NCBI GenBank assembly: GCA_014695345.1
Contig: JACJOC010000069.1
Location: forward strand, 1 to 64,000
Source of the DNA: Cyanobacteria bacterium FACHB-471
Lineage (GTDB): Bacteria; Cyanobacteriota; Cyanobacteriia; Elainellales; Elainellaceae
Direction: 5' to 3'
Length of the DNA: 64,000 bases
This document shows positions 22,276-46,846 of the stretch, one piece after another (the stretch's first letter is position 1; each line of letters starts with the position of its first letter). Position numbers and translations under genes: made by a program. The notes beneath the pieces were generated by a model. The model ran no database searches and was not told the origin of the DNA. It worked only from the letters and a program-made list of their open reading frames with translations.

Positions 22276-23724
22276 ATGGCAACCCTTGGCAACCTAAAGC
22301 TCAAAACACGTATCTTTTTGGGATATTTTCCGTCTGTCCTGATCTTGCTCATCTTGAGCGGGGTGACATATTCGTATGTTTTAGACAGAGAAAAACTTAA
22401 TGAGGAAATTGAAGTTGCCCAAAACACGGTTTTTCAAGCACAGCAGACCGCACTTGGAATTTCTCGAATGGTTAGAGCATTGAGAGGTCAGGTGATTGAC
22501 CCGAGTGATCCTCATTATCAGGAAGGTTATGAGAAGGGACTTCAAGCATTCCAGCAAGCTTCTGCGGAGTTGATTCCACTGCTCGATGATCCTGCAACTA
22601 TCGAACAAATGAATACCGTTTTGGTGCAGGCTGAGGAAGTTCAAGAAGTAGCTGGTCAAATTATCACCCTGTCAAAAGCGGGACAATTTGAAGAGTCTAA
22701 AGGGCTTGTCACTACAATCATTCTGGATGAAATGGATACGACGGTCAGGGGGATTTTAGATCAAGAAGTTGCCGCTTTAGAAGAGAAAAAGCTTGAGGGG
22801 GAAGCATCTAAGAAATTTCTCCTGAATGTAGTATTGGCCAGTTCTGCGATCGCCACTGCTATTACTGCACTTTTAGGTTTTCTGATTGCTTCTGGAATTA
22901 GCCGCAAAGTGCAGCAATCAGTTGGAGATATTACGACTTCTTCTAATGAGATTGCGACAACTGTTGAAGAGCAGGAACGGGTCGCTCACCAGCAAGCCGC
23001 TTCGGTGAATGAGACAACAACTACGATGGATGAGTTAGAGGCTTCTTTCCGTCAGTCAGCCGAGCAAGCCAAGGCAGCAGCAGCAGCAGCGAAACGGGCA
23101 CTTGAGCTGACAGAGGGGGGCAACCTGGCAGTGGGAGAGAACCTGGAAGGCATGTTTATGCTGGAGAAGAAGGTCGGAACGATCGCCGAACAAATGTTGC
23201 AGTTGAGTGAGCAAGCCCAACAAATTGGCAGTATCTCTCAACTGGTATCTGATATTGCTAGCCAAACCAACATGCTGGCGCTTAACTCTTCGGTTGAGGC
23301 CGTTCGAGCGGGCGAACATGGTAAAGGGTTTACTGTCGTTGCTAACGAGATTCGTAAGTTGGCAGACCAAAGCCAAAGATCTGCCGACAAGATTAACGAA
23401 CTGGTGTCTCAGATTCAGAATGCGATTAACTCAACCGTGATGGTGACTGAGGAAGGCACAAAAACGGTTTCTACAGGCGTAGATATTGCTAGAAGAACGG
23501 AGCAAGCCTTCACCGGAGCAGCAGATGCAGTTAACCAGGTGGTTCTCAATAACCAACAGATCTCACTTAATCTGAAGCAACAGCTGGATGGCATCCAGCA
23601 GATTGTTCAGGCAATGGAAACGATCAATCAAGGGGCAAAAGAAACTGCTAGCGGTATCACGCAAGCCAAAGTAGGAACTCAGCAACTGAACGAAACTGCT
23701 TTGACGCTCAAGCGATTGGTCTAG
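22276..23724 (+). CDS. Methyl-accepting chemotaxis protein 1
   Basis: A 482-residue membrane chemoreceptor. TM1 is at about 12-33, a sensory four-helix-bundle-like region of about 150 residues follows, and TM2 is at about 183-208. A cytoplasmic signalling domain follows TM2 directly, without a clear HAMP domain. The kinase-contacting tip is [20 protein letters not shown] followed by GKGF, the canonical type. [17 protein letters not shown] carries the Glu residues expected to be methylated, and CheR and CheB are encoded in the same operon. There is no pentapeptide tail. GGAG precedes the ATG. The signalling half is almost identical to MCP 2, while the sensory half differs. Confidence 0.92.
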
Positions 23725-23771
23725 AGAGGGTTTCTGGGCATGTTTATCCCTGAGCAAAAGATAGAGTTTAA

Positions 23772-23837
23772 ACCAAGGCAGATACAGAACAACTCAACGA
23801 TGCTGTTCTGGTTTTGAAAGAAGTGGCGCGGCTCTAG
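23772..23837 (+). pseudogene. Fossil of an MCP C-terminus (copy 2)
   Basis: The frame reads TKADTEQLNDAVLVLKEVAR, then Leu and a stop. It resembles fossil 1 (about 14 of 19 positions) more than the intact tails. It lies 75 bases before MCP 2, the same place fossil 1 has relative to MCP 1. Both therefore belong to a duplicated unit of fossil, leader and receptor. Confidence 0.65.
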
Positions 23838-23912
23838 TACTTAATAGTTAGGCTCAACGACTCATTACAACTGATCAATCAATTCAATGCCGCAGGAATT
23901 TTTAGGGTAACG

Positions 23913-25364
23913 ATGAAGAATCTCAATAGTCTGAAAGTTAGAACTCGCATCTTTTTGGGATACATGCCCCCTTTAATTCTGCTATTTATTTTGGGTGGAG
24001 CTACCTACGTGAATGCGTTGGATCGGGAAAAGCGAAACGAAGAGATAGAGGCTTCATACACCACAATTAATCAAGTCACTCAATTGGCACTTGGTCTAGG
24101 CAGAATGGCTAGGATCACGAGAGCAGCGATTGTTAATCCTGAGCAAATTGATTCTTATCAATCTGCTTATCAAGATGGATTTCAGCGCTATCAGCAAGCA
24201 TCTATAGGAATCCTTGATGTGTTAGAAAACCCCGAGGATAAAGAGAAAATGCAGGCTGTATTAGCAGATGGTGAAAGCTTTGCAGCGGTTGGGGAAGACG
24301 TGCTCTCTCTGGTGAGAGCAGGTCAAGTTGAGCAAGCAACTCAGCTCGTAGAAAACTTGAGAGTGTCTACTTTAGACTCAACAACAGATGCAATTTTGCA
24401 AGAACAACTGACTCTTCTGAATGAGAAAAAGCGTCAAGCGGAAGCTGCTGGAAATGCTTTGCTCCTGATAGCGGTAGCTGGTACTCTCTCAGCTTCGGCG
24501 TTAACCATAGTTTCGGGTGGATTAATTACGGCAGGAATTAGTCGGGCACTTCAGAAATCTATTGGCTACATTACGACTTCTTCCAATGAGATTGCTACGA
24601 CGGTTGAGGAGCAGGAGCAAATTGCTCACCAGCAAGCTGCTTCGGTGAATGAAACAACCACCACGATGGATGAGTTAGAGGCTTCTTTCCGACAGTCAGC
24701 CGAGCAAGCCAAGGCAGCAGCAGCAGCGGCACGACAGGCACTTGAGCTAACAGAGGGGGGCAACCAAGCCGTGGGAGAGAACCTAGAAGGCATGTTTATG
24801 CTGGAGAAGAAGGTTGGAACGATCGCCGAACAAATGTTGCAACTGAGTGAGCAAGCTCAACAAATTGGCAGTATCTCTCAACTGGTGTCTGATATTGCTA
24901 GCCAAACCAACATGCTGGCGCTTAACTCTTCGGTTGAGGCAGTTCGGGCAGGCGAACATGGCAAAGGGTTTACTGTCGTTGCTAACGAAATTCGTAAGTT
25001 GGCAGACCAAAGTCAAAGATCTGCCGACAAGATTAACGAACTGGTCTCTCAGATTCAGAATGCAATTAACTCAACTGTGATGGTGACTGAGGAAGGTACA
25101 AAAACGGTTTCCACGGGTGTAGAAATTGCGAGAAGAACTGAGCAAGCCTTTACTAAAGCAGCAGATGCAGTCAACCGAGTGGTTCTCAACAACCAACAGA
25201 TCTCACTTAATCTGAAGCAACAGTTAGATGGCATCCAGCAGATTGTTCAAGCAATGGAAACCATCAACCAAGGGGCAAAAGAAACCGCCAGCGGTATCAC
25301 GCAAGCCAAGGTAGGAACTCAGCAATTGAACGAAACTGCTTTGAATCTCAAGCAATTGGTATAG
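23913..25364 (+). CDS. Methyl-accepting chemotaxis protein 2 (tandem paralogue)
   Basis: A 483-residue receptor with the same layout as MCP 1: TM1 at about 13-33, an extracytoplasmic helical sensory domain, TM2 at about 182-210 and a HAMP-less signalling domain. From [15 protein letters not shown] to the C-terminus I count about 11 differences to MCP 1 over roughly 265 residues. The N-terminal sensory parts share only scattered residues (LKVRTRIFLGYMP, LDREKRNEEIE). The pair probably detects two different stimuli with one shared output to the downstream CheA. AGGG precedes the ATG. Confidence 0.92.
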   Translation: MKNLNSLKVRTRIFLGYMPPLILLFILGGATYVNALDREKRNEEIEASYTTINQVTQLALGLGRMARITRAAIVNPEQIDSYQSAYQDGFQRYQQASIGILDVLENPEDKEKMQAVLADGESFAAVGEDVLSLVRAGQVEQATQLVENLRVSTLDSTTDAILQEQLTLLNEKKRQAEAAGNALLLIAVAGTLSASALTIVSGGLITAGISRALQKSIGYITTSSNEIATTVEEQEQIAHQQAASVNETTTTMDELEASFRQSAEQAKAAAAAARQALELTEGGNQAVGENLEGMFMLEKKVGTIAEQMLQLSEQAQQIGSISQLVSDIASQTNMLALNSSVEAVRAGEHGKGFTVVANEIRKLADQSQRSADKINELVSQIQNAINSTVMVTEEGTKTVSTGVEIARRTEQAFTKAADAVNRVVLNNQQISLNLKQQLDGIQQIVQAMETINQGAKETASGITQAKVGTQQLNETALNLKQLV

Positions 25365-25511
25365 GAAATTTAGTCCCACAAGAGTAGCTGATTGAATCCG
25401 CTACTTTGAAGTTGAAGCAGGATTTCTGTTTTTCCAAAGATTTGATAGGGACAGATCTAAATCAGGGGGCATCGTACCTTCGATCGCCAATGGCATGAGC
25501 AATGATGAACT

Positions 25512-28500
25512 ATGAAAATAGATGATGAAGAGCTTCGGGAACTGTACGAACTCTCCAGTCAGGAGCGGCTGCGGAGGCTAGAAGCGGGTTTTCTACGCTT
25601 GCAAGAACATCCAGATGATGAAGCTGTTTTAGAAGAGCTACGGCGAGATGCTCACAGCCTCAAAGGTGACTCAAGAAGTGTAGGCGTAGAAACGGTTGAA
25701 GCGATCATTCAACAGGTTGAAGCAATTCTAAAAACCGTCCAGACGAAACGAGTTGCTTTAACTGCAATGGTGAGCGATCGCCTTCAGCAAGGGCTCCATG
25801 CAGTCAATATGCTGGTTCACGAAGCGGTAACGGGGCAGCAGAGCGAAGTAGACATTCCCCACATCGTTGAACTGCTAATGGCAGCTCATCAAGAATTGGA
25901 AACCCTACAACCTTTTGGTCCTGCTATAGAAAATCCGGTTAACTCTACGGCTCTGTCGAGTTTTATTGACGATGAAGAGCTGCGAAATTTGTATGATTTT
26001 TCTAGTCAAGATCGATTACAGAAACTCCAAGCAGGACTGCTGTATCTTCAACAACACCCCAATGATGCTACGACCCTTGAAGAAATGCGTCGCGAAGCTC
26101 ACGGGCTTAAAGGGGACTCTAGGAGTGTCGGTGTTGAAGATATTGAGGTATTGATCCAACAAATCGAAGGGATTCTCAAGAACGTTCAAGCCCATCGGTG
26201 CGCCCTCAACATTGAAGTGAGCGATCGCATTCGTCAAGGGCTAGAGGCGATCGGACAACTCGTCCACGAAGCTGTAACAGGACAACCCAACACTGCTGAT
26301 GTCATTCAAATTTTGGATCAATTGGTGCAAGTCGTTGATTATCCAGAAGAGTTTTCACCGGACGCTCTTTCTCCTGTCCTATCAAGTTTCATAGAAGACG
26401 AAGAATTGCGTCACCTCTATGAAATTTCCAGCCAGCACCACCTCCAAAAGCTGGAGGAGGGATTGCGATACCTGGAACAGCACCCTACTGATCAGGCAAC
26501 CCTCGAAGCACTACAGCAGGAAACCCATAGCCTTAAAGGAGACTCTAGAGGAGTTGGAGCGGATGCGGTAGAAACGCTAACCCACCACGTAGAAGAGATT
26601 CTCAAGGCTATCCAATTAGGAAGGATTGCCTTCCTTGATGTCAGCGATCGCCTAAATCAAGGACTAGAATCGATTCATAAACTAGTTCAAGAAACAGTCA
26701 CAGGTCAACCCAGTGAAGTAGATGTGCTGCAAGGGGTTGAGCTTCTGTTATTAATCCTTGAGGAAGCATCAGCCTCATCAGAAGCAGAAGTCATATTAGA
26801 AACGGTCGAAGCAGAAACCACTGAAATCACGATTGAAACAGCAGATTTAACCACTCCACGCGCTGCAACCTTCATTGAGGATGATGAACTTCGAGAGATT
26901 TATAAGATTGCTTGCCGAGAGCGGTTACAGCGGATCGAGGCAGGCTTGCTGCGACTCGAAAAGCACCCCGAAGATGAAGCAACACTAGAGCAGTTATTGC
27001 GAGAAGCCCATAGCCTTAAGGGAGACTCTAGAAGCGTTGGGGTAGACCCTGTAGAAACCCTAATTCACCAAATTGAAGAAGTTTTAGGAGGATTCAAGCA
27101 CAAACGCATTGCTCTAACAGTGGAAGTGAGCGATCGCCTTTATCAAGGGTTAGATGCGATCGGCAAACTAGTTCATGAAGCAGTAACCGGACAAATCAAT
27201 CAAGTTGATACCGCTCAAGTCCTCAACAACCTGATCGAAACATCACCGACTCCAGATACTCAGGTACTCGCTCCAGAAACAGTTACCCTCACTCAAACTC
27301 CCACTCAAGCCCCTACTCCTGCCGAGCAAACCCTCCTTTCTCTTTCCTCTGAAATTAACGAGCTCTACCGCATCGACACTATTCGCGTTCCAACTCGTGA
27401 TCTCGATGCTTTAATGACCCAAGCTGAAGAACTCACCGTTACTAAAACCAGCATAGGTCAAATCGCTGCGGTGATTGAGGAGATGTCTAACCTTTGGAGA
27501 GATTGGAGAAGCAGTAGCAGAAACCAGGGATTATCCTCTAAAGCCTCCTCTAAGTCCATTGCTTACCAGGAACAGCTAGAGAAAACCATTAACTCTCTCA
27601 GAATCTCCGCTCAAGAGAGCAGCACTCGACTCGACAAGATTTCTGGAGAACTCAGAGAAAAAATTCGCACCCTGCGACTGCTTCCTCTTTCTACGGTATT
27701 TCAAACCCTTCCTCGTACCATTAGAGATTTAGCCAAACAGCAATCTAAGGACGTAGAGTTAATCATTGAAGGGGGTGACACCACCGCTGATAAAAGTATT
27801 CTGGAAGAAATCAAAGACTCCTTGCTGCACCTGGTTCGCAACGCTATTGACCATGGCATTGAGACTCCCAGCGAGCGGCAAGCCCAGGGCAAACCCACTA
27901 CTGCCAAGATCTGGTTAAAGGGTTATCAAACTGACAACAAAATCGTAATTGAGGTTGCAGATGATGGACGTGGATTAGATCTTGAGAAGATTAAACAAAC
28001 TGCCCTTAAACGCGGATTGTATGACTCAGAAGAACTGGCAGCAATGTCCCAAAGCCAGATTCATTCACTCATCTTTGTACCTGGATTTTCAACTCGCAGC
28101 TTCATTACAGAAATCTCAGGCAGAGGCATTGGCTTAGACGTTGTCAGAAACAACATTGAGCGGTTGAAGGGAGAGATTCAAATTGAATCCAACCCCGGAC
28201 AGGGATGCACTTTCCGAATTCAGCTCAACACGACTTTAACAACCATTGATACCGTTCTTCTAGACGTACAGGGGCTCATTCATGCATTGCCTATTGAATA
28301 TCTTGAGACAACACTCTTAATCTCTGAAAGTCAGATCTCTACAACTGAAGACAAAGCCACTATTAGCTGGAATGGACAAGATATCCCGGTCGCAGATTTG
28401 AGCGAAATGCTGAAACTGTGGGAATCTCACGCTTACACTCCACCCATCACCACAAATCGACGAAAAAGTAATTTGCAGCAATGCGTTTTACTCAAAGTTG

Positions 28501-29087
28501 GGGAAGAGCGAGCCGGATTTTTCATTAATCGCCTGTTTGATGCCCAGGAAATTGTAATTAAGCCTCAAAGCCAAGTGCTGAAGCGGGTACGCCACGTCGC
28601 AGGAGCCACCATTCTGCCAACCGGGGAAGTTTGCACCATTTTGAATGCTCCTGACTTGATCAAATCGTTGAAGGAGCAAAACACTCCTGTTCTCGCACTC
28701 AAACCAAAAACCGTTCGACGAAAACCGACTATTTTGCTGGTAGAAGACTCCGTTCCAGTTCGCACGCAGGAAAAGCGGCTTCTGGAGAGAGCAGGATACG
28801 AAGTGGTCATTGCTGTTGATGGATTAGACGGCTACAATAAGCTGCAAACTCGTTCGTTTGATGCGGTGCTATCTGACGTAGAGATGCCCAACATGGATGG
28901 ATTATCTCTCACTGCAAAAATTCGTCAACAGCAAGAATATAAGAACTTACCCATTATTCTAGTCACAACGCTGGATTCAGATGCAGACAAGAAAAGGGGC
29001 GCTGATGCGGGTGCTGATGCCTACGTTATCAAAGGGAAGTTTAATCAGGATGTGCTTCTAGAAATCTTAGAAAGATTGGTTAATTAA
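25512..29087 (+). CDS. cheA: Hybrid CheA kinase with four HPt domains, CheW and REC
   Basis: A 1191-residue kinase. Four HPt modules of about 145 residues each start with DDEEL or EDEEL. They carry phospho-acceptor His48 (DAHSLKGDSR), His197 (EAHGLKGDSR), His339 (ETHSLKGDSR) and His500 (EAHSLKGDSR). A dimerisation region (about 615-725) and HATPase follow, with HLVRNAIDHGIETP (Asn777), DDGRGLDLEKIK and GRGIGLDVVRNN. Next come a CheW-like domain (about 905-1055) and a C-terminal REC domain with Asp1122 in LSDVEMPNMDG. All catalytic elements look intact. The order resembles CheA proteins of alternative-function or type IV pilus systems. The gene lies 147 bases after MCP 2 and one base before cheB. 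Confidence 0.93.
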   Translation: MKIDDEELRELYELSSQERLRRLEAGFLRLQEHPDDEAVLEELRRDAHSLKGDSRSVGVETVEAIIQQVEAILKTVQTKRVALTAMVSDRLQQGLHAVNMLVHEAVTGQQSEVDIPHIVELLMAAHQELETLQPFGPAIENPVNSTALSSFIDDEELRNLYDFSSQDRLQKLQAGLLYLQQHPNDATTLEEMRREAHGLKGDSRSVGVEDIEVLIQQIEGILKNVQAHRCALNIEVSDRIRQGLEAIGQLVHEAVTGQPNTADVIQILDQLVQVVDYPEEFSPDALSPVLSSFIEDEELRHLYEISSQHHLQKLEEGLRYLEQHPTDQATLEALQQETHSLKGDSRGVGADAVETLTHHVEEILKAIQLGRIAFLDVSDRLNQGLESIHKLVQETVTGQPSEVDVLQGVELLLLILEEASASSEAEVILETVEAETTEITIETADLTTPRAATFIEDDELREIYKIACRERLQRIEAGLLRLEKHPEDEATLEQLLREAHSLKGDSRSVGVDPVETLIHQIEEVLGGFKHKRIALTVEVSDRLYQGLDAIGKLVHEAVTGQINQVDTAQVLNNLIETSPTPDTQVLAPETVTLTQTPTQAPTPAEQTLLSLSSEINELYRIDTIRVPTRDLDALMTQAEELTVTKTSIGQIAAVIEEMSNLWRDWRSSSRNQGLSSKASSKSIAYQEQLEKTINSLRISAQESSTRLDKISGELREKIRTLRLLPLSTVFQTLPRTIRDLAKQQSKDVELIIEGGDTTADKSILEEIKDSLLHLVRNAIDHGIETPSERQAQGKPTTAKIWLKGYQTDNKIVIEVADDGRGLDLEKIKQTALKRGLYDSEELAAMSQSQIHSLIFVPGFSTRSFITEISGRGIGLDVVRNNIERLKGEIQIESNPGQGCTFRIQLNTTLTTIDTVLLDVQGLIHALPIEYLETTLLISESQISTTEDKATISWNGQDIPVADLSEMLKLWESHAYTPPITTNRRKSNLQQCVLLKVGEERAGFFINRLFDAQEIVIKPQSQVLKRVRHVAGATILPTGEVCTILNAPDLIKSLKEQNTPVLALKPKTVRRKPTILLVEDSVPVRTQEKRLLERAGYEVVIAVDGLDGYNKLQTRSFDAVLSDVEMPNMDGLSLTAKIRQQQEYKNLPIILVTTLDSDADKKRGADAGADAYVIKGKFNQDVLLEILERLVN

Positions 29088-29088
29088 A

Positions 29089-30183
29089 ATGCCCATTCGA
29101 GTTTTGCTGGTTGAAGATTCTCAGATTGCTCTCACTATCTTAAAGCGGATTTTAAGCTCATCTCCTGACATTGAGGTCGTAGGAGAAGCCAAATCTGGTC
29201 TAGAAGCTTTGGCGATGATTCCGGAGGTACAACCCGATGTGATTTGCACAGACCTCCATATGCCCCGTATGGATGGACTCACTTTTACATCCGAGGTGAT
29301 GGCACTTTATCCTCGCCCTATATTGGTTATCAGTGCTTCTGTCCAAGACGAGGACACTCATCAAGTTTTTCAGCTTTTAGAGGCAGGAGCAGTTGATATT
29401 TTTCCTAAACCACTTGCTGGTTTAACGATTGATAATCAGGTATTTGGGAAAGAGCTGATCAACAAAATTCAGATCCTGTCTGGAGTTAGAGTACTCACTA
29501 GAAAACGAAAAATTAATAGTAAACCCCAAAAGCTAGAATCAGATAAAGTTTCTGTCTTTCAGCCAGATTTCTATCACAAAGCTAATCACAAACCTAAAAT
29601 TGTGGTTATAGGAGCATCAACGGGGGGACCTCAAGCTCTTCACGATGTGTTTACTCAACTACCGTCTGATTTTCCACTTCCAATTATTTGTGTCCAACAC
29701 ATTTGTCTAGGTTTCTTGCAAGGCTTGATTGATTGGCTTGCCAACAGTTGCTCTCTACCCATTCAAATTGCTCAGCCAGGAGAGCTACCAAAGCCAGGAA
29801 AGATTTATTTTCCACCTGAGCAACGACATCTGGAACTGGACTCTAGAGGGCGATTTATCTGCTCTGACGCTTCCCCTTTAGGAGGGCATCGTCCTTCAGT
29901 AACGGTTACTTTCATCTCTACTGCCAAGGCTTATGGGAAATCAACGGTAGGAATTTTGTTGACAGGCATGGGTAGAGATGGCGCAGATGGGATGCAGGCG
30001 ATCGCCGAAGCAGGCGGTTTTACGATCGCTCAAGATGAGGCGACTTCCGTTGTATTTGGAATGCCTAAAGAAGCAATTAGCCTGGGAGCCGCAAAACAGA
30101 TTTTGCCGATTCAGGCGATCGCCCCGACATTATTATCCTTACTACACACTAATTCTTCTTATCTAGCTAGTCGTAGAGACTAA
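29089..30183 (+). CDS. cheB: CheB methylesterase
   Basis: A 364-residue receptor-glutamate methylesterase. The N-terminal REC domain has Asp55 in CTDLHMPRMDG. The catalytic domain has Ser177 in GASTGGP, His204 in VQHI and Asp297 in GMGRDGADGM, the complete triad. It removes methyl groups from MCP glutamates after phosphorylation by CheA and so provides adaptation. The start ATG is one base after the cheA stop, so translation is probably coupled. CheB is absent from the well-studied Synechocystis phototaxis clusters, which makes its presence here notable. Confidence 0.95.
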   Translation: MPIRVLLVEDSQIALTILKRILSSSPDIEVVGEAKSGLEALAMIPEVQPDVICTDLHMPRMDGLTFTSEVMALYPRPILVISASVQDEDTHQVFQLLEAGAVDIFPKPLAGLTIDNQVFGKELINKIQILSGVRVLTRKRKINSKPQKLESDKVSVFQPDFYHKANHKPKIVVIGASTGGPQALHDVFTQLPSDFPLPIICVQHICLGFLQGLIDWLANSCSLPIQIAQPGELPKPGKIYFPPEQRHLELDSRGRFICSDASPLGGHRPSVTVTFISTAKAYGKSTVGILLTGMGRDGADGMQAIAEAGGFTIAQDEATSVVFGMPKEAISLGAAKQILPIQAIAPTLLSLLHTNSSYLASRRD

Positions 30184-30217: not shown

Positions 30218-31384
30218 ATGCCGTTGGATCAAGTTTGCAAGATTTTAATGAGGAGTGTTAGGAAACTAAACGTGTCACCAACAGAACCTTTGAGCGCAGA
30301 GCGAAGAGAAGCATTTGTTCGGCTCATTGCCAAGCACACTGGCATAGAAATTAGAGCAAGAGATCAGGCAAGTTTAAGCACAAAAATTTCTTCAAGGATG
30401 AAGGCGCTTAAATTAGATTCATCAACGGCATACTATCAGCTATTAGAATCTTCTAATGCCGATAGCCATCAGGAATGGCTAGATCTGGTTACACTATTGA
30501 CCAATGGTGAAAGTTATTTTTTTCGTGACACAGAACAGTTTTCGCTTTTACGGAACCAAATTCTGCCTGAACTGATTCAGCAAAATCAAGACAGTAAAAC
30601 GATTCGCATCTGTAGTGCGGGATGCTCTTCAGGAGAAGAACCTTACTCAATCGCCATCCTGTTAAAAGAGCTTATTCCTGACTTAGAGCAATGGAATTTA
30701 CTGATTTTAGGTGTAGATATTAATCAACTCGCTCTAGAGAAAGCAAAAAAAGCAATTTACAGTCCGTGGTCGTTTAGAAATGTCGACCCCGACGTTAAGC
30801 AGCAATATTTTCAACTCATTCATGATCGCTATAAGCTTGATCAAAGCATCAAAGAGATGGTGAATTTTCAGATTCTAAATTTGATCAAAGACGAGTTTCC
30901 TCAACAGGATTCTGAATTGAGGGATATGGATTTAATTATTTGTCGTAATGTTTTTATTTATTTTGAAAGAGCGGCGATCGCCAAAGTTATAAGCAAGTTC
31001 CACCGAACTCTTAAACCTCTTGGATATTTGCTGACCGGGCACGCCGAACTCTCCAATCAAAATCTCAATCCATTCCAAATTAAAGTATTTACAGAATCAC
31101 TTATTTATCAGCGTACAGCAAACGATTCAACGACTGCATCCCTTTCATCAACACTAGATGAACAGCAGAGCTATTATCCAGAAAATTTATCCTCTGATAC
31201 CGACGATGACCTAGGTGACAATCCTTACGTCGGAAGAAGCATCAGAATGCAGCAAATTGCACTCAACTTGCTCAGACAGCTTCCGCCCGATACGACCATT
31301 CAAAAATTAGGAAACTTAACTGCTGCCGAACTGATTCTACAGCTAGAAACAGAACTCAAAAGTCTTGACCAGGAACTATCATGA
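30218..31384 (+). CDS. cheR: CheR methyltransferase
   Basis: A 388-residue SAM-dependent receptor methyltransferase. The N-terminal helical domain is at about 30-100. LTNGESYFFRDTEQF is the family hallmark before the SAM fold, RICSAGCSSGEEPYSIAILL is the SAM loop, and IICRNVFIYF and GYLLTGHAELS follow. It methylates MCP glutamates and opposes CheB. A non-conserved C-terminal extension of about 90 residues (after YQRTAN) may be an adaptor segment. It overlaps cheW by four bases (ATGA), so the two are translationally coupled. The first 25 residues are unconserved, and a later start is possible. Confidence 0.93.
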   Translation: MPLDQVCKILMRSVRKLNVSPTEPLSAERREAFVRLIAKHTGIEIRARDQASLSTKISSRMKALKLDSSTAYYQLLESSNADSHQEWLDLVTLLTNGESYFFRDTEQFSLLRNQILPELIQQNQDSKTIRICSAGCSSGEEPYSIAILLKELIPDLEQWNLLILGVDINQLALEKAKKAIYSPWSFRNVDPDVKQQYFQLIHDRYKLDQSIKEMVNFQILNLIKDEFPQQDSELRDMDLIICRNVFIYFERAAIAKVISKFHRTLKPLGYLLTGHAELSNQNLNPFQIKVFTESLIYQRTANDSTTASLSSTLDEQQSYYPENLSSDTDDDLGDNPYVGRSIRMQQIALNLLRQLPPDTTIQKLGNLTAAELILQLETELKSLDQELS

Positions 31385-37667: not shown

Positions 37668-37727
37668 GATGACTAATTTGTGAGCGTCCTTGAACAAAAT
37701 TCATGGGTTGAATCGAGGCAATACCAA

Positions 37728-40202
37728 TCAGTTCATCAGTTGACCCACATCAGGCTGACTCACTGCAACATTCACAGTACTCGGATGGGGCTCCTCTAAA
37801 GCAGAGTGTCCGTTTTGGCGAGTTTGACTGTGAAAGGTAGGAAATGCAGGTTCGTGAGATGAATTGGGGATAGTACCAGGTCGCAACTTAAAGAAGTCAA
37901 CCGTCTGGAGCAACATTTGAGCTAGTTGCTCTATTTCTTGAGTCTGTGCCTTTGTCAAACTTGCCTGCTCGGATGTTTCAACGGCAATCGCCGCAATAGT
38001 ACGAATAGACTGCAAAGCAGTTTGCACGGCAGTGGCGATCGCCTGACTGGACTGCACCATCTGCTGCCACGTTTGATCGACTTGCTCACTCGCCGTTTGA
38101 ATCGTGTCAAACACCTGCAAAGACTGGTCTACCCCAACGGTAAAGTCACTCACCTGCTGACTAATTTCTTGAACGTCATAGTCCAATCCAGATACCGTAG
38201 TTTGAATTTGGTCGGTTCTCTGTTGCAGCAAAATCAAACTTTGGTTGGTTTGAGATGCGAGGTCGTCTACCTGAGCCGCGACCGTTTCAAACTCACGGGT
38301 AATGCTGGCAAACTGTTGTGGATCTTGTTGCATTGCGGCCCGGTTTGCCAACATAGACGCATTTACCGCCAAAATCCGAGTCATGGAGGCAATTCGTTTT
38401 TGGTCCTTGGCAAATTGGGCCGCCAGTTCCACATAACTGGTGAGCATTTCGACCCGTTTGGTGATCTGGTTTGTGTTTTGCTGAAGGCTACTCATTCCTT
38501 CAGAAATAGTGGTGATTTCTTGCTGTCCTTGGAGCGTTGCGGATTGAGTTAACCGAACTGCTTCACTAGTAGCAGTTATTTGTTGTGCAGCCTCTTGAGA
38601 TAAGTCATCCACCGTCTCGATCAGGTTTTGCACCTGGATGATGGACTCTGTTTGCTGTTCAGCGTTATTTGAAACCGAGACTGCCGATTTTTCTAACTGG
38701 TTTGCTCCTTGAGCAACGTATTCCGTAGTGCCCAAAACGATCGCAATGACGTGTCCTAACCGCTCGACCAGGCGATTTAAGGTATTCGCGATTGAGCCAG
38801 TCACTCCAGTGCTGCTGCGGGCTTCTACCGTCAAGTCACCTGATTCGAGCGCCGCAACCATTCTCAAAAGCTGCTCAACTTCGGTTTGCAGCTTTTGATT
38901 GGCTTGCTCGGCGATCGCCATCTGCTTTAATTGTTCTTCGGTTTGGACGCGATTAACCAGATCTTGCTGAATTTGTTCCTGGTCAAGTTTGAGTTGCTCT
39001 AGGGCTTTAAAGAAAGCAGTGGAGATTTGTTCTACTTCGTCTTGCTGCTCTAGGGCAGTCTTTTCTGCATCCGTACCGGCTATCCGATGACACTCAGCCA
39101 ACATGGGCCGCAGGCGGTGATTGAGCGATCGCACCGACAGAGCCACCACCAGTGCTAAAGCCAACCCGACGGCAAGCGTTCCACCCACTGTGATGAGTGC
39201 AACCCGATCAAACACTGCTTCATAGGGCACAAAGGCAACGGCAATCCACTCTCTTTCAGGAATCTGTTCGTAGGCCCAGTACCCCTCCTCACCTTCTAAA
39301 ATTCCAGCTTGACCGGTCATCTCTGACCAAACGGGTTCTAGCCCCGGAACTGATTGATAGGTGGCTACCGGGTCTGCCTCATTGGCAGCAGATGGATTGG
39401 CAATCACCTGCCCGGTTCTAGTCAGCAGTGCTGTATATCCGGCTCCTTGCGTTACGGGTGTCTCGATTACATCATTGAATGCAGTGGGGTCTAGTTCGAC
39501 AAACACCGTTCCTAGCCAACCTGCACTATCATCCAGAATCTGAGCATAGTAGGTGGTCTTGTGTTGCTCCTCTAAGGCAGGGGATGACCAAACATCCTCT
39601 TGAGGGACAAAAAAGGTGCGGTAGCGATCGCTTTCAGGATAGAAGCTGTTGGCTTGAGTTCCGTCTACATAACGAACGTCATTGTAAGGCGGAGACAATA
39701 ACGTTCCAGCCGCATCTGGCTCCCCCGAATCAAGATAGTAGTAGGCAGAAAACCACTGTTGCTGAGGCAAAATGCCATTTTGACTTTGACCAATACCTAA
39801 ACCCCTAACAAAACTGGGGCGGTCTTTAAACAATTCAAATAGCAGTTGTCGATAGGTTTCGGCTGAATTGGTATTGCGAAGATGCAGCGCCAGGATGCTG
39901 GTTCTCAGGCTCTCTGCAAAGAGCTCGGCTTGTTCCAAACGACCATCTAAGAGCTGTACTTTATCACTCACAGCTTGTTGGATTTGTGCTTCTGCCTGGT
40001 ATTTGACAATTTCACCAAACAGAAAAGTAATGCCACCCACTCCCACCAAAGCACCTCCCACAACTGAGATGAACAATTTGGTGCCAATCGAGTTGAGACG
40101 AAACCGTTGAATGAGTGGAAGCTGATTGATCGCTCTGAGAAAACTCATTCTACTAGCAGAGTTAGGGGTGGAAGGTCGGGGAGTGTGGGGTGTGAATGAC
40201 AT
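37728..40202 (-). CDS. PixJ-type MCP with Cache sensory domain
   Basis: An 824-residue receptor. TM1 is at about 43-66, followed by a periplasmic Cache domain of about 260 residues (with VRGLGIGQSQNG and WLGTVFVELDPTAFNDVIE), and TM2 is at about 330-354. HAMP-like segments and a coiled coil (about 355-490) lead to an MCP signalling domain. The tip reads ASMTRILAVNASMLANRAAM rather than the usual QTN-x-LALNA-x-EAARAGE. Such divergent tips are typical of PixJ-type receptors that pair with PixL-like kinases. It probably senses small organic ligands. It lies 110 bases after the larger receptor gene. Confidence 0.88.
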   Translation of the reverse strand: MSFTPHTPRPSTPNSASRMSFLRAINQLPLIQRFRLNSIGTKLFISVVGGALVGVGGITFLFGEIVKYQAEAQIQQAVSDKVQLLDGRLEQAELFAESLRTSILALHLRNTNSAETYRQLLFELFKDRPSFVRGLGIGQSQNGILPQQQWFSAYYYLDSGEPDAAGTLLSPPYNDVRYVDGTQANSFYPESDRYRTFFVPQEDVWSSPALEEQHKTTYYAQILDDSAGWLGTVFVELDPTAFNDVIETPVTQGAGYTALLTRTGQVIANPSAANEADPVATYQSVPGLEPVWSEMTGQAGILEGEEGYWAYEQIPEREWIAVAFVPYEAVFDRVALITVGGTLAVGLALALVVALSVRSLNHRLRPMLAECHRIAGTDAEKTALEQQDEVEQISTAFFKALEQLKLDQEQIQQDLVNRVQTEEQLKQMAIAEQANQKLQTEVEQLLRMVAALESGDLTVEARSSTGVTGSIANTLNRLVERLGHVIAIVLGTTEYVAQGANQLEKSAVSVSNNAEQQTESIIQVQNLIETVDDLSQEAAQQITATSEAVRLTQSATLQGQQEITTISEGMSSLQQNTNQITKRVEMLTSYVELAAQFAKDQKRIASMTRILAVNASMLANRAAMQQDPQQFASITREFETVAAQVDDLASQTNQSLILLQQRTDQIQTTVSGLDYDVQEISQQVSDFTVGVDQSLQVFDTIQTASEQVDQTWQQMVQSSQAIATAVQTALQSIRTIAAIAVETSEQASLTKAQTQEIEQLAQMLLQTVDFFKLRPGTIPNSSHEPAFPTFHSQTRQNGHSALEEPHPSTVNVAVSQPDVGQLMN

Positions 40203-40312: not shown

Positions 40313-43300
40313 TTAGAGCGATCGCTTAGGAACAGTTTGAGCCGAGAGATGCGTTTCAACCCTGTCCGATGTGTTAGCAGAGATGTCCACGGTTGGAACT
40401 TTTGCCTGAGAGAGATCTACGGGTGTTTGAATTACCGTTTTGTCGCCTTTTAAGGTTGGCAACTGGAAGAATTCAATACTTTGCAGCAGTTGATTAGACA
40501 GCAGATTCATTTTCTCGGACTGAGTGCGGGTGCGTTGAGACAAGCCCGCCGTTTGGGTAGCAATTTCGGCAATGTCTCGAACCACTTGAGCCGCAGACTG
40601 AGCCGCATTTACGATTGCCTGACTGGATTGAGTTACTGCCTCACCTGCATTTACAGTTTCCTCTGTCACCACTTGGACACTGCTAAATACCTGACTGGAT
40701 TGATCAACCCCTTCAGTGAAGCCTCTCACCAAGCCTCCCAGGTTCTGAATGTTGGCATCAATGATCGAAACTACACTATGAATTTGGGTACTGCGTTGCT
40801 CTAGTGTCACCAGTCCTTCATTGGTTTGCTGCGCCAATCGACCCACCTGATTGGCGATCGAATCAAACTCACGGGCAACAACGGCAAATTGTCTGGGGTC
40901 GCGTTGCTCAGAGGCGCGAGCGGCGACCAGCGAAGCGTTGAGTGCCAGTGTTTGAGTCAGGGAAGCAATCTGGCTTTGTTCCTGCACAAACTGGTCAGCA
41001 AGTCCGACGAATTCGCCTAGCGTTTTCATCTGTTGCACGATTCGGTTGGTACCTTCTTGCAAGACCTCAATTCCTTGCGTCAAAGTAGCGATCGCTCCCT
41101 GTCCTTGTTCCACAGTGAACCGCACACTTTCCAGCGAAGTGGTGGTTGCTCTGGCTTTCTCAGCCGAGCTTTGCGCCATTTGCTCAACTTGCTCGGTCAA
41201 TTGCAAAACCTGAGTAACCGCCTGTGCCTGCTGTTCGGTGTTAGTCGCCACGACTTCAGCCATTGCCTTTTGTTGGTTGGCTCCTTCTGAAACCTGCTGA
41301 GCCGCCTCAACCACCTGAGTCACTACAGCTGTGAGTCGCTCAATCAAACGGTTAAAGGTATCTGCAACTAGTCCTGTGGTGCGATCGCTCACTCTTGCCT
41401 GAGTGGTCAAATCTCCTTCTTCTACTTCAGATACAACGTCTAGCAAATGACTCACTTCTTGCTGCAAAATCTCACTTTCTATCGCAATTGACACCAGGTT
41501 TGCGACTGAGGTGACGAATGTTTGTTCATCTGCCTGCCATGCCCGCTCAGCGTTGCGGTCACAGCGAATCACGCCAGCCGTTTGACCCCCAATCTGAATT
41601 GGAATGTTTAAGACCGACTGAATACCAGATGCAATTTTCTCATTTGCAAAGAGGTTATAAATTGCAGGGTTAGCAATAGCATTTGTGGTGGCAATCACCG
41701 TATCAATCGCCTGAAAATACTCCTTTGCATGAATCGCGGTCAAGATATCTGCATCTTTATGCTGTTTGGTGAAATGGTCATACTGATCCAGACAGGTAAG
41801 TCCAGTGCGATCGCTCGTATACACCCAAATGCTGACGCAATCCACCTGAATGGTTTGGGCGATCGTCTCAGTAAAGGCTTTAGCCACCTCTTGAGCATCT
41901 CCTTGAATCAGCGCTTCATTTTGAGCCAGACTTGCCAACATATCGTTTTGATGGCTTAACTGCTCCGAGTTTTGGCGCAAGGTTTGCAGCAGGTTTTGAA
42001 TCTGGGCCGCCATCTGGTTGACGTTGGCACCCAAAATTGCAAACTCATCACTACCTCGCACTGGGATTCGGGCTTCTAACTCACCTTGTCCCAACTTTTC
42101 AACCGTTTTGGTGACTCGCTGAATCGGGTCAGTGGCCCGTTTTGCTAAGAACGCACCCAACGCAGCTGCGACGAGAGCAGTTAGGACTGTACCCAGGGCG
42201 ATCGCTCGCAACAACTGCCCCTGAGGCACAAAAGCAACATTAGATTCAACTGAGGTGACAACGCTCCAATCCAGGTTTGCAGCCGTTCTGATGGGGGCAT
42301 AGGCATTTAGCTGTTCACCCGTTGCGGACTCTGCTAACCAGGCTTGCTGCCGTTTTTCGGCACTCACTTCAGGGAAAAGGGGCACCGCCTCAGCGATCGC
42401 CCCACCTAGTGCATTACTGTCAGTATCAGGTAAGTCTTGGAACACATTGCCTGAACTATCCACCAGCCGGTAGGTTGTTCCCTCGCGCAAGCTCGCTGTT
42501 CTGAGAACTGCGTTTCCCACATACTCTACCGGAATCCTGGCTGCAACGACCGCGATTGTTCTTCCAGACTCATCTGCGACCGGAGCCGCTACATAAATGG
42601 AGAGCCTTTCCGTGCCATCTACACCCGTCGTTGTACTCGGTTCACTCACAACGGCTTGTTCTGTGCTGAGAACTTGCTGAAAGTAAGCCGCATCTTTCTG
42701 ATTCAGTTCACGCGCAGAACCTTGAGATTGGGCAATCACCTCACCCTGGAGATCGTATAAAGCAATACTTGAGTAGGTTCGATAGTCTTGAACAAATGTA
42801 GTAAATTCCTCTGATGCAGCTTGCTCCAGCACGGCCCGCTGTGGAGAAGTGGCACTAAGATTACCCACTCCCTCATCTTCAATGAGGTGATGGGCGATCG
42901 TGGCGACCGTTTTGATGTTAGCCAATCGTTCTTCCAGGAAGCGACTCACCTGGTCAGAAAGCTGATTTGCCTCAAGCAACTTTTCTTCAGCAATCTGTTG
43001 AGTAATCGCACTGTCTCCAGAACGATAGGCATACCAACCCACCATCGATACAGGCAGCACACCAAACACAGTTGCCAAAATAGTCGCTTTAACACCAATG
43101 CTCAACCCCCTGCCTAGCAGGTAGTCTTTCGAGAGATTCAGACCCGATCTTCTAATCGATTGTTTTAACTTTGAGGTAGCGATATCCATCATTGCTGGAC
43201 CTCCAGGAGAAGGCGAAGTTTGAGCAGATGGGGCTGAATTCGCTGTATTTTTAGGAGTATTCTGTTGGGAATCTGATACGTTCTGATGTTGAGCAGGCAT
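40313..43300 (-). CDS. PixJ-type MCP with Cache, HAMP and GAF domains
   Basis: A 995-residue receptor. TM1 is at about 71-93, with a periplasmic double-Cache region (about 95-350, with VAARIPVEYVGNAVL). TM2 is at about 365-388, followed by HAMP (DPIQRVTKTVEKLGQGELEA). A GAF domain (about 470-620) and a second HAMP-like segment lead to the signalling domain, whose tip is ASLTQTLALNASLVAARASE. The GAF domain lacks the Cys-His pair of phytochrome-type bilin-binding GAFs, so this is probably a chemoreceptor, not a photoreceptor. It has the position of pixJ in the operon. It is separated by 47 bases from the TRAP-type gene upstream. Confidence 0.9.
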   Translation of the reverse strand: MPAQHQNVSDSQQNTPKNTANSAPSAQTSPSPGGPAMMDIATSKLKQSIRRSGLNLSKDYLLGRGLSIGVKATILATVFGVLPVSMVGWYAYRSGDSAITQQIAEEKLLEANQLSDQVSRFLEERLANIKTVATIAHHLIEDEGVGNLSATSPQRAVLEQAASEEFTTFVQDYRTYSSIALYDLQGEVIAQSQGSARELNQKDAAYFQQVLSTEQAVVSEPSTTTGVDGTERLSIYVAAPVADESGRTIAVVAARIPVEYVGNAVLRTASLREGTTYRLVDSSGNVFQDLPDTDSNALGGAIAEAVPLFPEVSAEKRQQAWLAESATGEQLNAYAPIRTAANLDWSVVTSVESNVAFVPQGQLLRAIALGTVLTALVAAALGAFLAKRATDPIQRVTKTVEKLGQGELEARIPVRGSDEFAILGANVNQMAAQIQNLLQTLRQNSEQLSHQNDMLASLAQNEALIQGDAQEVAKAFTETIAQTIQVDCVSIWVYTSDRTGLTCLDQYDHFTKQHKDADILTAIHAKEYFQAIDTVIATTNAIANPAIYNLFANEKIASGIQSVLNIPIQIGGQTAGVIRCDRNAERAWQADEQTFVTSVANLVSIAIESEILQQEVSHLLDVVSEVEEGDLTTQARVSDRTTGLVADTFNRLIERLTAVVTQVVEAAQQVSEGANQQKAMAEVVATNTEQQAQAVTQVLQLTEQVEQMAQSSAEKARATTTSLESVRFTVEQGQGAIATLTQGIEVLQEGTNRIVQQMKTLGEFVGLADQFVQEQSQIASLTQTLALNASLVAARASEQRDPRQFAVVAREFDSIANQVGRLAQQTNEGLVTLEQRSTQIHSVVSIIDANIQNLGGLVRGFTEGVDQSSQVFSSVQVVTEETVNAGEAVTQSSQAIVNAAQSAAQVVRDIAEIATQTAGLSQRTRTQSEKMNLLSNQLLQSIEFFQLPTLKGDKTVIQTPVDLSQAKVPTVDISANTSDRVETHLSAQTVPKRSL

Positions 43301-43347: not shown

Positions 43348-44457
43348 CTAACTAGGAGATATAAACTCACCCAGACTCTGTTCGTTAATTCGATTCCATT
43401 GATAAATTCCCTGGCGGAATCCTTTCCAGTTGTCATAAATCCTACGAAAACCGCCATCCTGGCTAGCAAATCCTTCGTATAGCTCCAAGGCTGCGGCTTG
43501 TGCGCCATTGATAATTTCGCTAGAGTAAGGGGTCAACTCCGTTCCACTACTCACTAATCGCTGCAATGCCTCGCGATTGGCTGCATCATATTGAGAGAGC
43601 ATCATAATCTGAGCCTCAGCAGCAGCAGCTTGCAGAGCTTGCTGATAGCCGGTAGGCAACTGATCCCAGGAGCCCCGATTCACAATCAGTTCATAAGTGG
43701 TTCCAGGCTCATGCCATCCTGGGTAGTAGTAGAATGGAGCAACTTTGTTTAGTCCTAATTTCTCATCTTCGTAAGGGCCAACCCACTCTGCCGCCTCAAT
43801 ATCATTTCGCTCAAGAGCAGGGGGAATTTCTTCAGGCGGGAGAGTTTGGGCGGCTGCCCCTAAACGCTTCATCACCTCTCCACCCAAACCCGGCATCCGA
43901 ATTTTTAGCCCCTTCAAGTCAGCCAGGGTGTTTACTTTTCGCTTAAACCAACCTCCCATTTGGTTGCCTGTACTGCCTGCGGGAAAGTTGATTGCGTTGT
44001 AGTCGGCATACACTTCCCGCAGCAGGTCTAACCCACCTGCCCCATACATCCAGGCTAGATGTTGGTTAGGACTTAGCCCAAACGGCACACTGGTCGCAAA
44101 GGCAAAAGCTGGATTTTTGGAAGTGTAGTAATAGCCAGCCGTGTGACCACATTCGGCAGTGCCCGCCTGGATGGTATCCAAAATTTCCAAAGGAGGGGCA
44201 ATTCCACCAGCAGGAAAGGCCGTGATCAGAAAATTTCCACCCGTTAACTCATTAACGCGATCGCAAATCAGTTTTGCTATCCCAAACACAATATCCAAGT
44301 TTTCGGGCCAACTGGTTGCCATTCGCCATTCAACTCGGGGCTGAGAACCTGATTGAACTTGAGAGCCAAAAAATTGGGGTTGATTGCTGCACGCAGCTAG
44401 AGTGCCTGCTGTAGCGGTGCCAATGGTGAGTTGACGAAGTAAATGTCTACGTTTCAC
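43348..44457 (-). CDS. TRAP-type substrate-binding lipoprotein (DctP family)
   Basis: A 369-residue periplasmic binding protein of the DctP/TakP class. The N-terminus has twin Arg (MKRRHLLRQ) and a lipobox ending at Cys23 (GTLAAC), so a Tat-exported lipoprotein is likely. VEWRMATSWPENLDIVFG opens the mature protein. LKGLKIRMPGLGGEVMKRLG carries the conserved Arg that binds the ligand carboxylate in this family, and AAEWVGPYEDEKLGL resembles the 2-oxoacid-binding branch. No DctQ or DctM membrane genes are in the window. It sits between CheW and the MCP genes, so it may hand ligands to the neighbouring receptors. The start codon is GTG, with GAGAAG 5 bases before it. Confidence 0.88.
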   Translation of the reverse strand: MKRRHLLRQLTIGTATAGTLAACSNQPQFFGSQVQSGSQPRVEWRMATSWPENLDIVFGIAKLICDRVNELTGGNFLITAFPAGGIAPPLEILDTIQAGTAECGHTAGYYYTSKNPAFAFATSVPFGLSPNQHLAWMYGAGGLDLLREVYADYNAINFPAGSTGNQMGGWFKRKVNTLADLKGLKIRMPGLGGEVMKRLGAAAQTLPPEEIPPALERNDIEAAEWVGPYEDEKLGLNKVAPFYYYPGWHEPGTTYELIVNRGSWDQLPTGYQQALQAAAAEAQIMMLSQYDAANREALQRLVSSGTELTPYSSEIINGAQAAALELYEGFASQDGGFRRIYDNWKGFRQGIYQWNRINEQSLGEFISPS

Positions 44458-44540
44458 AGTTCTTCTCGTTTAAGGGTGAATGAAGTTTCAAGCAAAACGG
44501 TCCAGTTCATATACCATCTTTTGCAGGGTAGGCAGTACTC

Positions 44541-44640
44541 ATACCGATTTAATTTGAGGACGTTGCAGAGGCGTGTAGGGGCGCACCGCAGTGCGCCCTT
44601 ACAGAAATTGATGTGTTGCGAAATCTATTCAAATCGGTAT
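44541..44640. mobile_element. 100-bp MITE in the pix-like operon (family C)
   Basis: Perfect terminal inverted repeats ATACCGATTT and AAATCGGTAT, with the match continuing imperfectly inwards. The centre has the palindrome GTAGGGGCGCAC-CGCA-GTGCGCCCTTAC. It lies in the 278-base gap between CheW and the TRAP-type gene and may separate the operon into two transcripts or add a hairpin. Confidence 0.75.
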
Positions 44641-44735
44641 CACTAACTCTCACAGTTCACGTCCCTAGTCATTCAGGTCTTCGCCAAGCGTGAGTGGTAC
44701 CCACCCCTACAGCAATACGATTGGTTCCTCGGGAT

Positions 44736-45245
44736 TTAATGCCAGTATTGAGGTGTCCAAAGGCGATCGCTCAACAGTTCAGGACGAAAAAGCTGAATTG
44801 ATCCCTGAACAGGCGGCGATACAGTTCCAGAAAGCTTAGATGCAGCAACACTCAACATGTCATCGGGAAGTTGCCCAGGCGAACGGTTATCCAAAATCTG
44901 ATCAACTACAATCCCAATACCTGCCAGATGTTCAGTCTCCTGGCTTAGCTGTACCACATTCACGGTTTCTCGCATTAATCCGGATGTTTTCTTAAACAAC
45001 CGCTGAATTTCAACCAGCGGCACAATCCGTCCATGATTATGAACCACTCCCAGAATGGCCGCATCGTAAAAGGGCAACGCTAAGATTTGCGATCGCTCAA
45101 TCAACAAAATCTCAGCCACACACACTGACGGAAAAGCAAATTGTTGATCTCCAACTTGAGTGAGAATATAGCGATCTTGCAAAGATGGCGACGTTGTCAA
45201 CTCCGTCTCTCCCTGCATAAGACCCTCTGCCGCAGCGTCTATCAT
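44736..45245 (-). CDS. CheW-type adaptor (PixI-like)
   Basis: A 169-residue CheW domain protein. After a short variable N-terminus it reads DRYILTQVGDQQFAFPSVCV, then AILGVVHNHGRIVPLVEIQR and LAGIGIVVDQIL. It connects receptors to the PixL-like CheA. ATG 45245 is preferred over a TTG four codons upstream because GAGG lies six bases before it. It follows the CheY-like gene after 15 bases, in the gene order pixG-pixH-pixI of Synechocystis. Confidence 0.9.
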   Translation of the reverse strand: MIDAAAEGLMQGETELTTSPSLQDRYILTQVGDQQFAFPSVCVAEILLIERSQILALPFYDAAILGVVHNHGRIVPLVEIQRLFKKTSGLMRETVNVVQLSQETEHLAGIGIVVDQILDNRSPGQLPDDMLSVAASKLSGTVSPPVQGSIQLFRPELLSDRLWTPQYWH

Positions 45246-45260
45246 ATCTGGCCTCAAACT

Positions 45261-45617
45261 TTAGAACTTTTGTAAGGTTTGTTCGAGACGTTCGCGAGTC
45301 ATGGGTTTCGGCAAATAGTCATTTGCCCCAGCTCGTTTAATTCCATAATTGATTTCCACAGCAGTCTTCTTGCTGGAATAAAAGATGACATGCTGCTTTG
45401 CCGTGTTCTGGTTAGAACGCAACTCCCGCAAAAACTTATAGCCATCCTGTTCAGGCATGACAATGTCCAGAAATACAGCGGTGTAATTGCCAGTCGCAAT
45501 CTTATCAATCACCCCTGCCGTACTTTCGCAAGACTCAACCTGATGCCCCATTCCCTCAAGTAAGGATGTTAAGAAATGCCGATCTACAGCGCTATCATCA
45601 ACAATTAGAAATCTCAT
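45261..45617 (-). CDS. CheY-type response regulator (PixH-like)
   Basis: A 118-residue single REC domain. The acidic pair is in FLIVDDSAVD, the phospho-acceptor Asp in AVFLDIVMPEQDG, and the conserved Lys in DYLPKPMTRE. It would receive phosphate from the PixL-like CheA and act on motility. It is separated by 2 bases from the PatA-type gene upstream. AGGAGA is placed well before the ATG. Confidence 0.93.
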   Translation of the reverse strand: MRFLIVDDSAVDRHFLTSLLEGMGHQVESCESTAGVIDKIATGNYTAVFLDIVMPEQDGYKFLRELRSNQNTAKQHVIFYSSKKTAVEINYGIKRAGANDYLPKPMTRERLEQTLQKF

Positions 45618-45619
45618 GA

Positions 45620-46846
45620 TTACTTCTCCTGGACTAAATGCGTCTCAACCTGATTTGAGGCTTGTAGCGGCGCTAATTCTCCTAACAATTCTCGAAGCTC
45701 AATCTGAAATCGTGGTACCTCCTGCATCACCACCGGTTTTGACAAGAACTTACAGCCACCCCACTGTGCTCGCCAGTTATTGGAAAGCGTTTTCTCAGCC
45801 GTTAACATCACTAAAGGAACCGAAGCCAACTTAGGCTGACGACGAATTTGCTTAACCAGATCAAAGCCCGTTATTTCCGGCATATTGATATCTAAAAAGA
45901 TAATTGCCGGGTTGGAGTACAGGATTGTTTTAAGTGCAGTAGCAGGGTTTTGAGAGAGCTTCACCTGATAGCCCCAAGTCGTAACCAAACGCTTGAACTG
46001 ATTCAAAATGATTGGAGAATCGTCAACAATGACAATCTCTGGAACAATAGCAGCGGTAGATGTGTCAAGCGTAACTAATCCTTCGTTGACCAGTTTGGCA
46101 AACCCTTTAGCAATTTCTAATGAATCTTGAGCTAGCGTTTCAGCAATCTCATTCAAGGTTTTGCCATGTAAAACCAGATTTTCCAAGCGTCGTTTTTGCT
46201 CAATTGACAAATTTGAGCGGGATACCGCCTCAGTGTTGAGAATCGGAACGCTCTCCATAGAAGAAATTTGAGCCTGGAGTTTGCGCCATAACGCCTGTCG
46301 CTTTTGAACATCAGAAAGCAAGCTTTCTAGTTCAAAACCGGGAATTGGAGATTCCACATGTAACTGAGGGGATGGCAAAAACTGAGCTTGTCCTGAACAG
46401 TCAAACAAACACAGGTCTAGGTCTGACAATATCTTCAGGCGCAATGCTTGGGTAATTTCTGACTGCTCGACCAGGCTCAGCTTACGCAGTTCGTTCAACA
46501 GCCTGGGAATAATAATGCGTTTTGCATTATGCTGCGTTGAAGTGAGTTTCCGCTCTAAAGTGAGAATCGTTTGCCTGACGCTGCTGTGGCGGAGACGAGG
46601 GATATAACGCTGCAGTGTTTCAAGCAAGCTCGGCCAGGAGAACTGTTGTTTCCCTGAGAAGACAACCCGTCCTTCTAGTAAAGCAATATATAACGGATTG
46701 ACTTGACTGTTTTTAGGAGCAGCAGGAAATTCACAAAGCCAATAGCCCGTATGCGTGCCTTCAAGCAAATCTTGAGTTGCGTGGTTCAGTTTCTGGGGCA
46801 ACTCTTGCGCTTGAAACGCAAAGTTATAAATTGCCGGTATGACCAT
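45620..46846 (-). CDS. PatA-type response regulator (PixG-like)
   Basis: A 408-residue regulator that starts the minus-strand operon. The N-terminal part has LLEGTHTGYWLCEFPAAPKN and LYIALLEGRVVFSGKQQFSW, matching the PatA/PixG N-terminal domain. An HTH-like segment at about 222-262 (HGKTLNEIAETLAQDSLEIA) precedes the C-terminal REC with Asp in IFLDINMPEITG. As PixG it would be one of two output regulators beside the CheY. A second PatA-type protein at the other end of the cluster (32682) shares the layout but not a close sequence. Confidence 0.87.
   Translation of the reverse strand: MVIPAIYNFAFQAQELPQKLNHATQDLLEGTHTGYWLCEFPAAPKNSQVNPLYIALLEGRVVFSGKQQFSWPSLLETLQRYIPRLRHSSVRQTILTLERKLTSTQHNAKRIIIPRLLNELRKLSLVEQSEITQALRLKILSDLDLCLFDCSGQAQFLPSPQLHVESPIPGFELESLLSDVQKRQALWRKLQAQISSMESVPILNTEAVSRSNLSIEQKRRLENLVLHGKTLNEIAETLAQDSLEIAKGFAKLVNEGLVTLDTSTAAIVPEIVIVDDSPIILNQFKRLVTTWGYQVKLSQNPATALKTILYSNPAIIFLDINMPEITGFDLVKQIRRQPKLASVPLVMLTAEKTLSNNWRAQWGGCKFLSKPVVMQEVPRFQIELRELLGELAPLQASNQVETHLVQEK

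Follow-up and report, generated by a model that had tools for sequence, protein, structure and literature searches.

Two chemosensory gene clusters that meet tail to tail on a contig of Cyanobacteria bacterium FACHB-471 raise the question of whether they form a single functional unit, and of what a gene for a solute-binding protein is doing among the receptor and kinase genes of one of them. We analysed a stretch of 64,000 nt (the window), in which the cluster here called system 1 occupies 22276-33878, including the minus-strand gene patAb, and system 2 occupies 34353-46846. The original prediction had treated the two as one island and had considered it possible that CheR and CheB of system 1 also serve the receptors of system 2. 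The features are as follows.

22276..23724, plus strand: mcp1 (system 1), PF00015 at E 3.6e-38
23913..25364, plus strand: mcp2 (system 1), a paralog of mcp1
25512..29087, plus strand: cheA1 (system 1), four Hpt stretches, ATPase, CheW-like domain and C-terminal receiver
29089..30183, plus strand: cheB methylesterase (system 1), PF01339 at E 4e-60
30218..31384, plus strand: cheR methyltransferase (system 1), PF01739 at E 7.8e-53
31381..32478, plus strand: cheW2x, two fused CheW domains (system 1), PF01584 in two stretches, E 1.4e-43
32682..33878, minus strand: patAb, PATAN-like and receiver regulator (system 1), receiver with DUF4388-like N-terminus
34353..37697, minus strand: cheA2 (system 2), Hpt, ATPase, divergent CheW-like domain and receiver
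37728..40202, minus strand: mcp3 (system 2), periplasmic domain and divergent tip NASMLANRAAMQQDPQQF
40313..43300, minus strand: mcp4 (system 2), dCache-HAMP-GAF-MCP receptor with divergent tip NASLVAARASEQRDPRQF
43348..44457, minus strand: dctP, TakP-type TRAP solute-binding protein (system 2), PF03480 at E 3.1e-55
44538..44645, minus strand: 108-base repeat with inverted ends, between cheW and dctP
44736..45257, minus strand: cheW (system 2), only positions 2-93 of the CheW profile matched
45261..45617, minus strand: cheY (system 2)
45620..46846, minus strand: patAa (system 2), receiver at the C-terminus, first gene of the operon

All of the genes originally predicted were found where they had been placed and their assignments hold in Pfam searches, with strong support overall; gene content and strands also bear out the description of two different Che systems lying tail to tail, the first with its own CheR/CheB pair and the second an operon with neither. 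System 1 reads mcp1, mcp2, cheA1, cheB, cheR and the fused double CheW on the plus strand (22276-32478), and system 2 reads patAa-cheY-cheW-dctP-mcp4-mcp3-cheA2 entirely on the minus strand, from 46846 down to 34353, with a patAa ortholog also starting the operon in the system-2 relatives examined. The two system-2 MCPs score 26.9 and 31.5 bits against the MCP signalling profile, below the Pfam cut-off of 34.6. MCP1 has two apparent membrane spans, a periplasmic domain of ~140 aa and a canonical MCP tip; Pfam gave no HAMP match in it. The DNA of mcp1 and mcp2 is 87-95% identical in the signalling half and ~50% identical in the N-terminal sensor half, with a sharp border between them, as either gene conversion or a duplication with an exchanged sensor would produce. 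The repeat at 44538-44645, of which the genome holds ~25 related copies, encloses a strong hairpin (z -4.4) between its inverted ends (ATACCGATTT...AAATCGGTAT); the gap between cheW and dctP that holds it in the window is only ~40 bases long in a congener (genome G021). The N-box of window CheA2 reads RNACAHG, as against RNAYDHG in five of five aligned relatives. As predicted, a scan of 44 large ORFs of the window turned up no flagellar or pilus-related genes; in the genome, two pilT-family genes score above the cut-off. Four further CheA/CheW/MCP clusters lie on other contigs, so that the pair in the window represents two of six.

We used a sample of 291 Cyanobacteriia genomes to evaluate the pairing, taking cheA2 as the marker of system 2 and the fused CheW as that of system 1. 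System 2 is present in 60 genomes and system 1 in 46, and both occur in eight, against 9.5 expected by chance (P(X>=8)=0.78). Six of these eight carry the two systems on different contigs, and only the window genome and its congener G021 have them side by side. The "island" is thus not a unit: across the sample its halves are mostly found apart and co-occur no more often than chance predicts, which is essentially the pattern that the original prediction had itself named as refuting it. The congener indicates, in addition, that the pairing has no fixed partner, since the system 1 beside its system 2 is the more divergent of the two that it carries (CheA, CheR and CheW 49-64%, CheB 77-80% and the receptor signalling part 73% identical to those of the window), and the closer relative (78-84%) lies on another contig. 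This arrangement (clusters at L046 3685-18678 and L043 8535-17472, the one beside patAb/cheA2 being the more divergent) points to system 1 having been replaced, or differentially lost, next to system 2. In a third congener (G022, 83% complete), system 1 lies downstream of the same racemase gene, and the cheA2 marker found no system 2. An apparent interruption of cheA2 in G021 was put down to assembly, because the sequence breaks off within a low-complexity linker and what stands at the other contig end seems unrelated. The best explanation is that two independent chemosensory systems became neighbours in one genus.

The neighbourhood of other genomes also decides to which system patAb belongs. 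The original prediction had listed this extra PatA-type regulator (32682-33878) with system 2; its full-length orthologs (44-52% identity) instead adjoin the mcp-cheA-cheB-cheR-cheW cluster in four genomes (G007, G205, G188 and G112), a weaker ortholog (35%) stands next to a system-1 cluster in G182, and none was seen beside ~18 system-2 operons of other genomes. We therefore assign patAb to system 1, several other relatives of which have a single-domain CheY nearby.

Could the CheR and CheB of system 1 nevertheless adapt the receptors of system 2, making one island of the two? The adjacency of the systems in the window genome and in G021 speaks for it, yet co-occurrence does not exceed chance and the system 1 adjoining in G021 is not the closest relative of the window's. 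Moreover, 10 of the 60 system-2 genomes have no CheR match (G017, G157, G159, G237, G239, G244, G262, G266, G281 and G291), four of them being at least 90% complete (G157, G159, G237 and G281), so that system 2 can do without CheR. The two systems also have unlike receptor tips. We defined the canonical tip by the pattern N-x-x-x-E-A-x-R-A-G-E-x-G-x-G-F; the usual form, for example NASIEAARAGEAGRGF, is found in system 1 and in four other MCPs examined in the genome, whereas MCP3 (NASMLANRAAMQQDPQQF) and MCP4 (NASLVAARASEQRDPRQF) fall outside it, being longer by two residues and without a glutamate where the usual form has one. The longer, glutamate-less tip is present in 17 of 17 aligned MCP4 orthologs, and the MCP3 orthologs readable by the tip pattern have the same form. 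Since the tips differ, the natural reading is that the two systems would form separate arrays. A strict methylation-site motif, searched as a regular expression, matched none of the four receptors, not even the two of system 1, which has its own CheR and CheB. Given the CheR-less genomes and the tips, cross-talk through the CheR and CheB of system 1 is not supported, and we regard the shared-adaptation explanation as highly improbable and already largely refuted.

As an island the window pair is ordinary, and its interest lies in system 2, where the "SBP" of the original prediction is real and can be refined to a DctP/TRAP protein of the TakP type. It carries an Arg-Arg signal and a lipobox-like LAAC, and its best solved relatives are the ketoacid-binding protein 7UG8 (E 4e-115) and TakP 2HZK (E 2e-98). 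In TakP, Arg177 and Tyr100 hold the pyruvate carboxylate, the cation is liganded by Gln156, Glu214, Glu240 and the carbonyl of Trp215, and the closed cleft is bridged by Tyr99 (PMC1839085). All seven residues are present in the window protein, as Y109, Y110, Q166, R187, E224, W225 and E250. An alpha-keto acid is the ligand predicted from these conserved residues only; as a family, DctP proteins bind several kinds of acid.

A linked dctP occurs in five of the 60 system-2 genomes, namely that of the window, G021, G147, G283 and Oscillatoria sp. CS-180 (G112), the last three of which belong to one family other than the window's. It lies between cheW and mcp4 in the first four, the G021 copy being 87% and the G147 and G283 copies 68-69% identical to that of the window; the CS-180 copy follows cheA2, is divergent (47%) and has lost three of the seven TakP residues. 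All other dctP genes are at most 58% identical to the window's and are located elsewhere. In a tree of 38 sequences, a branch with support 98/99 separates the four embedded dctP from 32 other cyanobacterial ones, and the CS-180 copy stands apart; the grouping of the four as a clade of their own has no good support (88/45), and there are long branches close by.

Several observations suggest that DctP and MCP4 belong together. For 19 relatives we measured how closely the periplasmic domain of MCP4 agrees with that of the window, the signalling domains of these proteins serving as the control. In the four operons with dctP the sensor is 78, 51, 48 and 50% identical to the window's, whereas in 15 of 15 operons without it identity is at most 34%; for the signalling domain the values are 67-93% with dctP and 54-83% without. 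In G017, a member of the window's family, the signalling domain is 83% identical and the sensor 34%. Compared all against all, the MCP4 sensors fall into types, the dctP-linked ones forming their own (44-88% mutual identity, and no more than 30% with any other sensor). The ratio of sensor to signalling identity, set against the presence of dctP, is the most extreme of 3876 label assignments, though this permutation ignores kinship, and because dctP is found in only five of 60 genomes, three of them in one family, the independent events of co-variation are few. No such link with dctP is seen for the mcp3 sensor. Within the window's family, six of seven operons have an mcp3 sensor of 49-78% identity, whether dctP is present or not; in the other family, the operons linked to dctP have one of ~20% identity. 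A partnership of DctP with MCP4 is argued mainly from this, that the co-variation is specific to the sensor of mcp4 and does not extend to that of mcp3. Both Pfam and the predicted fold (mean pLDDT 75) make the MCP4 sensor, encoded at 42218-43030 on the minus strand, a dCache domain, and a sequence search of the PDB with the whole of mcp4 returned no match; the model of the mcp3 sensor (mean pLDDT 68.5) is unreliable over half its length.

We consider it most likely, from these sequence comparisons, that DctP acts as a dedicated co-receptor for MCP4. It might instead be the transport protein of the genome's TRAP permease, its place in the operon only co-expressing uptake with taxis. The window dctP is not encoded with a DctQ/DctM permease, and the sole DctM match of the genome belongs to its one DctQM pair, on another contig (C45), adjoining a different dctP (53% identical). 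Having kept all seven TakP residues, window DctP could still feed a permease encoded elsewhere; but that permease already has its own binding protein, what co-varies with the window-type dctP is a receptor sensor and not a transporter, and dctP has been kept at the same operon place in two families without a permease beside it. This explanation is therefore unlikely, and direct binding of the acid by MCP4 still more so. The best Foldseek matches of its sensor include PctA/PctB/Tlp3 and, at the top, the KinD sensor with pyruvate, and since dCache domains often bind their ligands directly, MCP4 might itself bind an organic acid, leaving DctP as a scavenger or modulator. The KinD match is, however, a generic one (TM 0.58, 12% identity, 275 chains at E<=0.001) and so does not single out a ligand, and direct binding leaves unexplained why the type of the domain follows dctP, for which reasons we give this view little weight.

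With DctP as co-receptor, system 2 appears to be a sensor of small organic acids in which a binding protein captured from a transporter works with a membrane receptor. The sequences themselves show the operon and that it recurs, the residues for binding, the altered tip, and the agreement of MCP4 sensor type with the presence of dctP; the reading starts from these. DctP would bind a small alpha-keto or related organic acid together with a cation in the periplasm, and the ligand-closed protein would then dock on the dCache domain of MCP4 and change the activity of CheA2, whose signal may pass through CheY and the PATAN regulator to type IV pilus behaviour. System 2, with a receptor tip peculiar to it and neither CheR nor CheB in the operon, would be a distinct type of array, next to a system 1 of the MCP-CheA-CheB-CheR-CheW kind presumably capable of adaptation by methylation. 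Taken whole, from acid through docking to pilus output, we hold this account to be reasonably probable.

TakP-type genes elsewhere in cyanobacteria count in favour of this reading. Some, as would be expected, adjoin a TRAP permease. In G075, a TakP-type dctP lies directly beside a 4HB-HAMP histidine kinase; in G026 a CHASE3-HAMP histidine kinase, and in G112 a 4HB-HAMP-SpoIIE protein, directly follows two dctP genes (L168 950-4386, L176 729-5099 and L185 5547-10144; tandem pairs in two of the three). These positions suggest that the family has been repeatedly recruited for sensing in cyanobacteria. Some of the tandem copies have lost cation-ligand residues. Tentatively, and with more doubt than confidence, we propose that a TRAP binding protein and a matching dCache domain were captured as a dedicated, exchangeable sensor module that gives surface chemotaxis towards keto acids, within an array class of altered tip, and that related TakP-type proteins serve histidine kinases and a SpoIIE phosphatase likewise.

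What is known of taxis in cyanobacteria mostly concerns light, and much less is known of the chemical cues that feed into their type IV pilus systems; system 2 offers a receptor that can be tested and for which a class of ligand is predicted. Existing both with dctP and without it, the operon provides natural replicates for the joint gain of a binding protein and a sensor domain, and the altered tip, in an otherwise almost invariant region, provides a test of receptor recognition by CheW and CheA and of the separation of arrays.

Among known systems, the tax1/pix cluster of Synechocystis comprises PixG (PATAN-CheY), PixH (CheY), PixI (CheW), PixJ1 (MCP) and PixL (CheA) (PMC5812497), and system 2 has the same kinds of component in one operon, differing in its receptor tip and dctP. 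PixJ1 is a cyanobacteriochrome, whereas MCP4 combines a dCache domain with a GAF domain in which no bilin-type cysteine motif was seen by eye. Orthology with Pix was considered and rejected: the best CheA match in a Synechocystis genome, that of S. salina, is 34% identical to CheA2 (E 2.5e-66), against 46-82% among the CheAs of system-2 relatives. Wsp-type/ACF chemosensory clusters with CheR-TPR are a further comparison (PMC3447774). By the generally known gene set of Wsp, system 1 resembles them in having MCP, CheA-receiver, CheB, CheR and two CheW domains, and differs in that its CheW domains are fused, four Hpt stretches are present in CheA1 and the genes beside it include no GGDEF output gene. 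In the CheR of the window no TPR was matched, but two system-1 relatives (L055 7745-9355 and L193 10966-12633) do have CheR fused to TPR, like clusters of the Wsp type.

Window DctP is of the same family as TakP of Rhodobacter sphaeroides (PDB 2HZK/2HZL), with Tyr99, Tyr100, Gln156, Arg177, Glu214, Trp215 and Glu240 conserved, but TakP is a transporter component and window dctP belongs to a chemosensory operon with no permease beside it. Binding-protein-assisted sensing is an established principle, represented by SBP-activated chemoreceptors (PMC9602780). In a literature search confined largely to papers outside the subscription journals, we found no report of a TRAP-type binding protein in a cyanobacterial chemosensory operon. 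As in the receptors of that kind, a periplasmic binding protein is proposed to present the ligand to a sensor domain; unlike those in PMC9602780, the protein here is of the TRAP/DctP type, its gene lies in a cyanobacterial PATAN-type operon, and its docking on MCP4 is what we propose.
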